A DNA stretch of 64,000 nucleotides from contig NZ_JACCKX010000001.1 in assembly GCF_013423955.1 (NCBI RefSeq), forward strand, positions 2,356,001 to 2,420,000, given 5' to 3'. The DNA comes from Ottowia beijingensis (lineage in GTDB: Bacteria > Pseudomonadota > Gammaproteobacteria > Burkholderiales > Burkholderiaceae_C). This document shows positions 31,907-35,355 of the stretch, one piece after another. Both the position numbers and the translations under genes were made by a program. The first letter of the stretch is position 1, and every line of letters starts with the position of its first letter. The notes beneath the pieces are model-generated. The model saw nothing but the letters and a program-made list of their open reading frames with translations. It was not told the DNA's origin and searched no databases.

Positions 31907-34102
31907 ATGCCATCCCCGGCCGCCACTGCCGACAAGCCGCTGTCCGCACCGCAAAAGGCGCTGCGCAAGCTGGGCCTGGTGCGCCCCATCGACCTGGCGT
32001 TGCACCTGCCGCTGCGCTACGAGGACGAGACGCGCATCGTCCGTTTAAGCGATGCGCGCGACGGCGACACGGTGCAGATCGAAGGCGAGGTGACGCATCA
32101 GGAGGTGACGTTTCGCCCGCGCCGCCAATTGCTGGTGAGCTCAACGACGGCACCGACACGGTGGTGCTGCGCTTCTTCAACTTCTACCCTTCGCAGCAAA
32201 AGCAGATGGCGGTGGGCACGCGCATTCGCGCGCGGGGCGAGCTGCGCGGCGGCTTTGCCGGGCTGACGATGATGCACCCACGGTGCGCGCGGCCGGCGGT
32301 GCGCTGCCGCAGGCGCTGACGCCCGTCTACCCCACGGTGGCGCAACTGCCGCAGCCGTACCTGCGCAAGGCCGTGCTGGCGGGCCTGGCGCAGGCGGATC
32401 TGTCGGAGACCGTGCCACCAGAGGTTTTGAGCGAAATCGGCCATTTGCGCTTGTGGGACCTGCGCAAGTCGCTCTCATTTTTGCACCAACCGACGCCCGA
32501 TGTGTCGCTGGCCCAGCTGGAAGATCACAGCCACCCCATCTGGCAGCGCCTGAAGGCCGAGGAGCTGCTGGCGCAGCAGTTGTCGCAACTGGAAGCGCGC
32601 CGGGCGCGCGAGCATTTGCGCGCGCCCGTGCTGCGCGCCGAGCGCGGCGGCGTGCACGAGCAACTGCTGGCCGTGCTGCCGTTCCAGCTCACCGGCGCGC
32701 AGCGCCGCGTGGGCGAAGAGATTGCGCGCGACCTGGGCCGCGTGCAGCCCATGCACCGCCTGCTGCAGGGCGACGTGGGCAGCGGCAAGACGGTGGTGGC
32801 CGCGCTGGCGGCCTGCATCGCCATCGACGCCGGCTGGCAATGCGCACTGATGGCGCCCACCGAAATCCTGGCCGAGCAGCACTTCGCCAAGCTGGTCGAC
32901 TGGCTCGCGCCGCTGCTGCAGGCGCGCGGCCAGCGCGTGGCCTGGCTCACCGGCAGCCAGAAGAAGAAGGCGCGCGGCGAGATGCTGGCCGCCATCGCAA
33001 GCGGCGAGGCGGCGCTGGTGGTGGGCACGCACGCCGTCATCCAGGAGCAGGTGAAGTTTCAGAAGCTGGGCCTGGCGATCATCGACGAGCAGCATCGTTT
33101 TGGGGTGGCGCAGCGGCTGGCGTTGCGGCAGAAGTTGACCGATGCGGGTGGCGCACTTCTTCTCCGCCGGCGGGAGAGGGCCGGGGTGAGGGGAAGGCCT
33201 CGCTCGCTTCAGGCCAGCCCCTCACCCCAGCCCTCTCCCCAGAGGGGCGAGGGCGCCAGATGGCCACCGAGCCCCACCTGCTCATGATGAGCGCCACCCC
33301 CATCCCGCGCACCCTGGCGATGAGCTACTACGCCGACTTGGACGTCTCCACGCTCGACGAGCTACCGCCCGGCCGCACGCCGGTGGTCACCAAGCTGTTG
33401 GCCGAGCACCGCCGCGGCGAGGTCATCGAACGCATCCGCGGGCAGATCGCCGAAGGGCGGCAGGTCTACTGGGTCTGCCCGCTGATCGAGGAGAGCGAGG
33501 CGCTGGATTTGCGCAACGCCACCGAGACCCACGCCGAACTGAGCGAAGCCCTGCCCGGCCAGATGATCGGCCTGCTGCACTCGCGCATGCCGGTGGCCGA
33601 GAAGAAGGCGGTGATGGCGCTGTTCACCAGCGGTGCCATGCCGGTGCTGGTCAGCACCACCGTGATCGAAGTCGGCGTCGACGTGCCCAACGCCAGCCTG
33701 ATGGTGATCGAGCACGCCGAGCGCTTCGGTCTGAGCCAGCTGCACCAGTTGCGCGGCCGCGTGGGGCGCGGCGCCGCGGCTTCGGCCTGCGTGCTGCTGT
33801 ATTCGGCGCCCGACGGCGGCCGCCTGGGCGAGACGGCCCGCGCGCGGTTGAAGGCCATGGCCGAAACCAGCGACGGCTTCGAGATCGCGCGGCGCGACCT
33901 GGAGATTCGCGGTCCGGGCGAATTCCTCGGTGCGCGCCAGTCGGGCGCGGCGCTGTTGCGCTTTGCCGACCTGGCCGAAGACAGCACCCTGCTGCAATGG
34001 GCGCGCGGTGCGGCGCCGCGCATGCTGGACCAGCACGCCGAGATGGCGCGCAGGCATGTCGACCGCTGGCTGGGTACCAAATCGGACTACCTCAAGGCAT
34101 GA
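31907..34102 (+). CDS. recG: ATP-dependent DNA helicase RecG with an in-frame repeat insertion (three apparent base losses)
   Basis: About 732 residues, some 40 longer than usual. It branch-migrates stalled forks and Holliday junctions. N-terminal wedge/OB domain, then Walker [13 protein letters not shown], motif [11 protein letters not shown], motif [23 protein letters not shown], and the C-terminal helicase motifs [14 protein letters not shown] and [13 protein letters not shown] with the TRG-region RFADLAED. Bases are missing near 32135, 32280 and about 33154. Between motif II and motif III lies a palindromic repeat (33150-33261) adding about 35 residues rich in Gly, Pro, Leu and Ser; with the lost C at its left arm restored the frame continues intact. 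Start ATG at 31907 follows AAAGGAGAAGG. Confidence 0.9.
33150..33261. repeat. Palindromic repeat inserted in recG
   Basis: GGGAGAGGGCCGGGGTGAGG at the left and CCCTCACCCCAGCCCTCTCC at the right are near-perfect complements around CCTCGCTCGCTTCAGGCC. The same module occurs between genes at 8321. It encodes, in the helicase frame, about 35 residues that RecG proteins otherwise lack. Confidence 0.85.
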
Positions 34103-34109
34103 TGGCGCC

Positions 34110-34420
34110 ATGACGCTGACTGAACTCAAGTACATCGTGGCCGTGACCGTGCGGAGGGCAGGGCGAGGGGCCCCGCTTGCGGGGATCGACCCCGCAGCGC
34201 GATCGTTGCGACGGCGTTGTCGCGCATCGAAGCTGGGGGCAGCCGCATGACCCTGACCGAACTCAAGTACATCGTCGCCGTGATCGTGCGGAGGGCAGGG
34301 CGAGGGGCCCCGCTTGCGGGGATCGACCCCGCAGCGCGATCGTTGCGACGGCGTTGTCGCGCATCGAAGCTGGGGACAGCCGCATGACCCTGACTGAACT
34401 CAAATACATCGTCGCCGTCG
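34110..34420 (+). repeat. 137-bp tandem duplication of the oxyR start region
   Basis: The start ATGACSCTGACYGAACTC occurs at 34110, 34247 and 34384, exactly 137 bases apart. Copies one and two each encode MTLTELKYIVAV followed by 34 unrelated residues and stop in an ATGA overlap with the next start; only the third leads into the full OxyR protein. The about 100-base spacers differ at one position. Each spacer has CCCCGC, GCGGGG and CCCCGC in a row (34171, 34179, 34190), so two alternative hairpins are possible. Confidence 0.9.
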
Positions 34421-35355
34421 CCCGCGAGAAGCACTTCGGCAAGGCCGCCGAGGCCTGCTTCGTCTCGCAGCCCACGCTATCGGTGGCGGTGAAGAAGCTC
34501 GAAGACGAACTGGAGCTGAAGCTGTTCGAGCGCAGCAGCGGCGAGGTGACGGTGACGCCGCTGGGCGAGGAGATCGTGCGCCAAGCGCAGAGCGTGCTGG
34601 AGCAGGCGGCCGAGATCAAGGAGATCGCCAAGCGCGGCAAGGACCCGCTGGGCGGGCCGCTGAAGCTGGGCGTGATCTACACCATCGGCCCCTACCTGCT
34701 GCCCGACCTGGTGCGCCAGAACATCGAGCGCACGCCGCAGATGCCGCTGATGCTGCAGGAGAACTTCACCGTGCGCCTGCTGGAGATGCTGCGCACCGGC
34801 GAGATCGAGGCCGCCATCCTGGCCGAGCCCTTCCCCGACACCGGCCTGGCCATCGCCCCGCTGTACGACGAGCCGTTCCTCGCCGCGCTGCCCAGCAGCC
34901 ACCCGCTGGCGGCCGGCACTGAAGTGACCACCGAGCAGCTCAAGAACGAGCACATGCTGCTGCTGGGCAGCGGCCACTGCTTTCGCGACCACGTGCTGCA
35001 GGTGTGCCCCGAGTTCGCGCGCTTTTCCAGCAGCACCGACGGCATCCGCAAGAGCTTCGAGGGCTCGTCGCTGGAGACCATCAAACACATGGTGGCGGCC
35101 GGCATGGGCGTGACGCTGGTGCCGCGCCTGGCGGTGCCGGCGGCCGCGCTGGCCAACCCGCCCGCCAAGGCCGCCCGGCAGGCCGAGGGTGGCCTGATCC
35201 GCTACCTGCCGATCCGCGACGACGCCGGCGGCGAGCCGCCCACGCGCCGCGTTGTGCTGGCCTGGCGCCGCAGCTTCACGCGCTATGAGGCCATCGCGGC
35301 CCTGCGCAACGCCATCTATGCCTGCGAGCTGCCGGGCGTGGCGCGGCTTTCGTGA
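34384..35355 (+). CDS. oxyR: Hydrogen peroxide-sensing LysR regulator OxyR
   Basis: 323 residues. The HTH (KAAEACFVSQPTLSVAVKKL) is followed by the sensor domain with the redox pair Cys199 and Cys208 in GSGHCFRDHVLQVC, at the same numbers as in E. coli OxyR. Further text: VIYTIGPYLLPDLV, AILAEPFPDTGLAI, EGSSLETIKHMVAAGMGVTL. It senses peroxide by disulfide formation and activates antioxidant genes. I chose the third of three tandem starts because only it joins the full domain. It lies downstream of recG, a common neighbour in Burkholderiales, and its stop overlaps the GTG of the PAP2 gene. Confidence 0.92.
   Translation: MTLTELKYIVAVAREKHFGKAAEACFVSQPTLSVAVKKLEDELELKLFERSSGEVTVTPLGEEIVRQAQSVLEQAAEIKEIAKRGKDPLGGPLKLGVIYTIGPYLLPDLVRQNIERTPQMPLMLQENFTVRLLEMLRTGEIEAAILAEPFPDTGLAIAPLYDEPFLAALPSSHPLAAGTEVTTEQLKNEHMLLLGSGHCFRDHVLQVCPEFARFSSSTDGIRKSFEGSSLETIKHMVAAGMGVTLVPRLAVPAAALANPPAKAARQAEGGLIRYLPIRDDAGGEPPTRRVVLAWRRSFTRYEAIAALRNAIYACELPGVARLS

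Follow-up and report, generated by a model that had tools for sequence, protein, structure and literature searches.

The window analysed here is a 64-kb stretch of Ottowia beijingensis DNA, and all features described in it lie on the forward strand. At 34384–35355, it contains oxyR, which encodes a LysR-type regulator of 323 amino acids. The product possesses the Pfam domains HTH_1 and LysR_substrate, and its best NCBIfam match is OxyR PRK11151 with 219 bits, which is under the cut-off of 329 for that entry. The start of oxyR is found twice more upstream of the real one, at 34110 and 34247, and the three starts are spaced by 137 bases, as an earlier note on this DNA had described. Tandem Repeats Finder places an array at 34109–34418 with a period of 137, 2.3 copies and a score of 578, the top of 14 rows in the window, with the runner-up scoring 68.

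Start positions, the Tandem Repeats Finder output and reading frames delimit a first unit at 34110–34246, which consists of a duplicate of the oxyR start with 12 codons followed by an element of approximately 100 bp. Comparison of the units shows that the second, at 34247–34383, is built in the same way. The element is therefore situated at codon 12/13 of oxyR, and the combination of start and repeat occurs twice in tandem. The repeat had been called exact, which is not the case, as the two units differ at 5 of 137 bases: three differences fall in the 36-base OxyR part, all at third codon positions, and two in the other 101 bases. Similarly, the statement that the spacers differ at one base is true only when codon 13, with its change, is counted outside the spacer; otherwise there are two differences in 101. 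Reading of the frames did bear out the two predicted mini-genes. The first start opens a leader of 46 codons (34110–34250), whose TGA lies within the ATGA of the second start (34247–34250), and the second start opens another of 46 codons (34247–34387), ending in the same manner within the ATGA of the real oxyR start (34384–34387).

The conserved core of the element, GCGAGGGGCCCCG-loop-CGGGGATCG, was located by the core pattern and the consensus at 34163–34188 in the first unit. In the second unit, the core pattern, RNAalifold and covariation place it at 34300–34325, with the hairpin arms at 34308–34312 and 34317–34321. An outer stem, here called P1, was assigned by covariation among 12 oxyR units. 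Its left arm in the second unit (34276–34286) extends in the leader from the end of codon 10 to the beginning of codon 14, and its right arm (34337–34353) comprises CGATC at 34337–34341 and ACGGCG at 34348–34353; the equivalent arms of the first unit lie at 34139–34149 and 34200–34216. Two alternative hairpins, as proposed earlier, can indeed be drawn from CCCCGC (34308–34313), GCGGGG (34316–34321) and a further CCCCGC (34327–34332). However, among the 12 oxyR units from eight genomes, this third block is present only in the two units of O. beijingensis, and the alternative hairpin is therefore not conserved.

The upstream neighbour, recognised by its reading frame and family match, is an open reading frame containing the 3′ part of recG (32453–34102), whose TGA stop (34100–34102) lies 7 bases 5′ of the first oxyR start. 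No sigma-70-type promoter or intrinsic terminator was found in 33800–34500, and an Rfam search of 33900–34700 gave nothing credible, all matches being sub-threshold with E-values of 2.4 or worse. A survey of the O. beijingensis genome for the spacer run, in which 148 of 7518 first-look candidates were scored, found none beyond the two oxyR units.

oxyR arrays in related genomes

The reading in the earlier note would have been refuted if all relatives had a single oxyR start. Twenty-nine genomes of the genus were searched, and the oxyR start region was matched in 24. Extra starts are present in six of these 24, namely in O. beijingensis itself (three starts), G321 (four), G323 (three), and G312, G305 and G307 (two each). 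In the other 18 genomes, the match covers the last oxyR start only, and the 14 of these that were read have one start each. Outside the genus, an array at oxyR with the same layout and 137-base spacing was found in one other genus (G066) and in Polaromonas sp. BC.025. In G066, a start with 13 codons is followed by a diverged but homologous spacer and, 137 bases on, by the real start, both starts being written in the genome's own codons. A combined pattern of core and oxyR start matched only G000 and G066 among 399 family genomes, which is an undercount, since the start of G321 has TTG where the pattern needed CTN. In G305, an apparent decayed extra copy lies 5′ of the oxyR array.

The arrays of these carriers contain one to three units with lengths of 137, 139 or 140 bases. 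The hairpin loop varies by one or two bases among them, and the total length still fits coupling: all 12 leaders from the eight genomes stop at the next start, 10 of 12 by ATGA and 2 of 12 by a TGA one base before the ATG. The suggestion that the leader may vary in copy number is supported, as one, two or three units occupy the same spot among related species. This variation (1–3 units) is seen between species and includes the sister pair G321 and G312, with three units and one unit, respectively. Mapped onto a tree of 28 oxyR bodies, the occurrence of arrays requires six changes, three of which are forced by well-supported (starred) branches, and the array label is no more clustered than in shuffles (109 of 500 as low).

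A dispersed repeat family and its insertion sites

Rather than being native to oxyR, the spacer is a member of a family of structured repeats that is dispersed in Betaproteobacteria. A search of 299 family genomes, in which two first-look candidates were scored per genome and which hence shows presence rather than absence, revealed the core of the spacer at other genes in other genomes of the family. The exact core pattern matched 19 of the 299 genomes, that of O. beijingensis included, while the reversed pattern used as a control matched none of the 299. A scan of 84,980 species, each represented by one genome, yielded at least 120 stretches with the core. Among the matches listed (120), 111 belong to Betaproteobacteria and one to Hydrogenophilia, six are without a class by their labels, and two are contigs of one MAG labelled Gammaproteobacteria. 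The pooled set from all searches contains at least 151 different copies, those from related species not being independent of each other in any of the counts given here. No plasmid match was found for the window region, nor any match in plasmids or phages for one Piscinibacter copy. Searching 17 loci against Rfam at the gathering score gave no match, and a literature search, with subscription journals thinly covered, found no published account of the element.

Stop/start overlaps are the more frequent location of the element; at oxyR and at the start of a GMC-oxidoreductase gene (Pfam; L075, L077 and L247) the insertions lie instead 12–16 codons inside the gene. At the GMC gene, the start and the first 14–16 codons are followed by the element and a restart, although in L077 the leader ends not at an ATGA but a few bases into the restarted gene. 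Direct duplication of at least 10 nt of flank was observed for 39% of the 137 copies with enough flank, compared with 3% of mismatched pairings; tandem arrays lengthen some of these direct matches. Coupling is seen for part of the copies, and some (L122, L137 and L140) lie at gene 3′ ends. These three are found at the end of apparently one Ramlibacter gene and have outer stems of 15–16 bp that include the stop codon; between L140 and L137, 5 of 15 positions of the outer stem differ and the pairing is kept. At a Polaromonas-type locus (L143 and L220, with the look-alikes L070, L186 and L193), direct matches lie 147 bases apart around the core in a variant without an obvious tie to a gene start. 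Tandem copies with diverged units also occur at other loci (L230 of G303, L160 and L184).

The junction between an upstream gene, presumably mnhF-like, and an mnhG-like gene (Pfam PhaG_MnhG_YufB) provides filled and unfilled versions of one site. Here, 27 loci of the genus were read, a 28th match being unrelated. The core is present at four of the 27 loci (G321, G300, G314 and G303), always directly after GARTGA. At 16 loci, the overlap is plain, and the start in GARTGA opens a frame of at least 115 codons with neither element nor short leader. Four others possess core-less short leaders of 14 bases in G312 (L253), 41 in G307 (L263), 38 in G315 (L266) and 74 in G323 (L273), each of which closes in ATGA on an mnhG start opening 126–138 codons. 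G312, with its 14-base leader and no element, is the sister of G321, which has the element. Two of the 27 loci lack GARTGA, and in O. beijingensis the frame closes after 55 codons, perhaps through a frameshift. These counts indicate that presence or absence at one site varies within the genus and that even the core-less leaders, which may be remnants of the element, keep the coupling. At the mnhG locus of G303 (L268), a single leader frame of 146 codons runs through several tandem copies of the element and terminates in the GTGA of a start whose own frame has 122 codons.

Reading frame and RNA structure of the element

Copies with NTGA starts on both sides were collected with no condition on the frame. 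The starts had to be 95–124 bases apart, with NTGA 11–15 bases before the core and an open reading frame that either reached 60 codons or continued past the end of the sequence; 103 of the 151 copies were unfit or redundant. In 45 of the 48 remaining non-identical copies, the start-to-start distance is 2 mod 3, with values of 110 (18 copies), 113 (17), 107 (7), 116 (2) and 122 (1), and in the other three it is not. Such three-base steps in the spacing are a prediction of selection for a coupled frame. Gene calling with a heuristic that picked a wrong downstream start for the first unit of the window assigned a clear downstream start on the same strand to 77 of the 151 copies, a better antisense gene to five and none to 47; of the rest, 14 were too short or contained N and eight were redundant. 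Where a neighbouring start was callable, the element is thus mostly in the coding orientation (77 versus 5). NTGA is found in 54 of the 77 called starts, and at 49 of these 54 no stop interrupts the coupled frame within the element, whereas the two other frames are open in 32 and 24.

RNAalifold of 78 copies gave a hairpin and an inner stem, the core being invariant because the copies were selected by it. P1 joins gene sequence left of the core with the arm to its right. At least seven Watson–Crick pairs of P1 can form in 34% of 137 copies, compared with 5% of mismatched pairings. For 26 copies of one class, in the choice of which P1 was ignored, double changes were observed in all eight P1 pairs, and the double-change cells of the whole structure number 58, compared with 21.8 in shuffled and 4–18 in slid controls. 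Slid controls are disfavoured here and for the 12 oxyR units, as the structures were drawn from the same sequences. One of five measures gave no support, with nine pairs showing a double change in these 26 copies and 7.5 in shuffles (78 of 500 as high). The 12 oxyR units have 14 double-change cells compared with 4.0 in shuffles, and their innermost P1 pair appears as A-U, G-C, U-A, C-G and U-G. At the mnhG junction, the gene has GATTGAAT in G303 and GATCGAAT at the other filled loci, and the arm of G303 has changed to match, so that the difference is compensated. A comparison of left and right arms (36 of 39 left) was set aside, since the arm had been selected as the one fitting the left flank best, which introduces a bias. 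The folding energy of the window unit is no better than in shuffles (z −0.07), and six folds gave z between −0.07 and −1.71, without clear thermodynamic support. Therefore, the structural argument rests on covariation.

P1 covers the upstream stop and the leader start, so that the element might also serve as a coupling switch. In many copies, a segment of the element matches, in inverted form, the few bases just left of its own insertion point. It is conceivable, albeit rather unlikely, that the repeat is mobile and either generates or exploits an arm that is complementary to its target. Such an arm might either be written from the target at insertion, by direct-inverted-direct copying, or act as a guide for insertion. 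To our knowledge, a retargetable, target-complementary arm is not known from MIRUs, REPs or similar repeats. The arm could reveal the insertion mechanism.

Origin of the array and relation to known repeats

The repeat family, its sites, the frame rule, the stem, the presence or absence at one site and the differences in unit number can all be read directly from the genomes compared. On these sequence grounds, the array is probably a MIRU-like structured repeat of Betaproteobacteria together with a duplicated oxyR start, coupled, nearly neutral for expression and variable in copy number. Its first arrival would have been a transposition-like event brought about by an enzyme. A ribosome entering at the first start would read 46 codons, disrupting P1 and the hairpin, and its stop at ATGA would lead to termination and reinitiation at the next start, twice in this locus, before OxyR is made. 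Such an insert would keep oxyR expressed and be nearly neutral, so that it could persist. The number of units may change through recombination between the 36-base repeats, which might tune the output of OxyR.

The opposing view, that the tandem mini-genes and hairpins form a dedicated regulatory leader selected to set or sense the level of OxyR, draws on the leader codons. Across codons 2–12, comparison of the 12 leaders with the real start in each genome gives 38 synonymous and five nonsynonymous changes (pN/pS 0.048), three of the latter belonging to G307. This almost purely synonymous change indicates more constraint than a neutral insert predicts, which counts against our explanation. A regulatory role would also fit the total length, which stays compatible with coupling despite the changes in loop length, and the six tree changes, three of them forced, needed for arrays at the same codon. 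Nevertheless, only the last start is seen in 18 of the 24 genus genomes with an oxyR match, and the same element with the same ATGA logic occurs at unrelated genes. The synonymous bias could mean that the first residues of the leader peptide are important, or else that recombination exchanges start segments between the leader and real positions. The four oxyR starts of G321 look mosaic by eye, which favours exchange, at least in part, and fits a turnover by recombination that would also keep leaders near functional starts. Overall, a dedicated regulatory leader seems improbable. Ribosome bypass, in which ribosomes would leave the leader at codon 12 and land on the corresponding codon of the real gene, so that the leader codons encode OxyR itself, would account for the nearly exclusive synonymous change as well. 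Judged by known bypassing systems, however, it is unnecessary, given a gap of 137 bases, the lack of a stop beside the take-off codon and the intact real start, and we consider it extremely unlikely.

The earlier note had interpreted the array as a recent duplication of oxyR. Plain slippage, which would have duplicated the 5′ end of oxyR in tandem without any dispersed element, would agree with the two spacer copies being the only ones found in this genome and with the little divergence between them. In contrast, the spacer is a dispersed repeat, found with target duplication at many other genes, unrelated ones included, and in other genera, and filled and unfilled sites coexist. These dispersed, family-wide copies contradict plain slippage, which is very unlikely to be the origin. 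The spread of the spacer, together with leader and real starts that differ by up to six synonymous sites in 36 bases, means that a recent duplication of oxyR is not supported. An assembly artefact could be suspected from an assembly that is 89.25% complete with 5.2% contamination, in which the neighbouring recG lies in three frames and the mnhG gene reads in two. This is highly improbable, since arrays of this kind occur in seven other genomes, including the one-contig G321 with four starts. As far as the relatives show, the array is real and not an artefact, and it is an instance of something more general than the earlier note had supposed.

According to a 2025 review, MIRUs are repeats of apparent mobility whose insertion at start codons leaves an internal open reading frame coupled at −4 nt, which likely limits the harm of insertion (PMC12548453); they are polymorphic in size and in tandem copy number (PMC2734929). 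The element shares with MIRUs the interspersed short repeats, the coupled frame and the variable tandem copy number. The −4 overlap is seen in the ATGA of 10 of 12 oxyR leaders and in the 2 mod 3 spacing of 45 of 48 start pairs. Insertion at a start or overlap is seen at all four filled mnhG loci, on GARTGA, and at many junctions, while the window copies lie after oxyR codon 12; interspersion extends over many loci and genera, although in O. beijingensis only the oxyR locus was found. Unlike MIRUs, the element has its host group in Betaproteobacteria, a hairpin core that is conserved and an outer stem that covaries and is partly formed by host sequence. MIRUs reportedly (Supply, 1997) lack dyad symmetry, whereas the stems here are conserved and covary. 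We therefore call the element MIRU-like and not a MIRU, since the same job is done with a structured sequence and the likeness is judged by the description of MIRUs.

REP/BIME and ERIC-type palindromic repeats are short, dispersed, palindromic and non-autonomous, and the element shares this nature. In contrast to them, it has a frame-constrained coupled reading frame and a target duplication. Classical REPs begin with a 5′ GTAG head, which is absent from the element consensus. Rickettsia palindromic elements are structured repeats that stay in frame inside one protein; tolerance of insertion in coding sequence is common to both, but at the present sites the gene begins anew after the insert and encodes an unchanged product. 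The comparison suggests that the lifestyle of MIRUs, with insertion at a coupling site and restoration of the coupling, exists in distant bacteria with a different, structured repeat. This leads to a testable general rule, namely that small mobile repeats evolve under selection for the ATGA frame. Furthermore, natural oxyR variants with one to four starts offer material to ask whether leader number sets the level of this peroxide-stress regulator.

Two minor observations concern the O. beijingensis assembly. The three frames of recG span 31907–34102, and its middle and C-terminal parts are separated by a GC-rich insert of about 100 bp (about 33147–33254) that resembles another kind of dispersed repeat. 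In addition, contigs C4, C3, C2 and C1 (L049–L052) all contain the same two short matches about 9.1 kb apart, which suggests a long repeat or redundant contigs.
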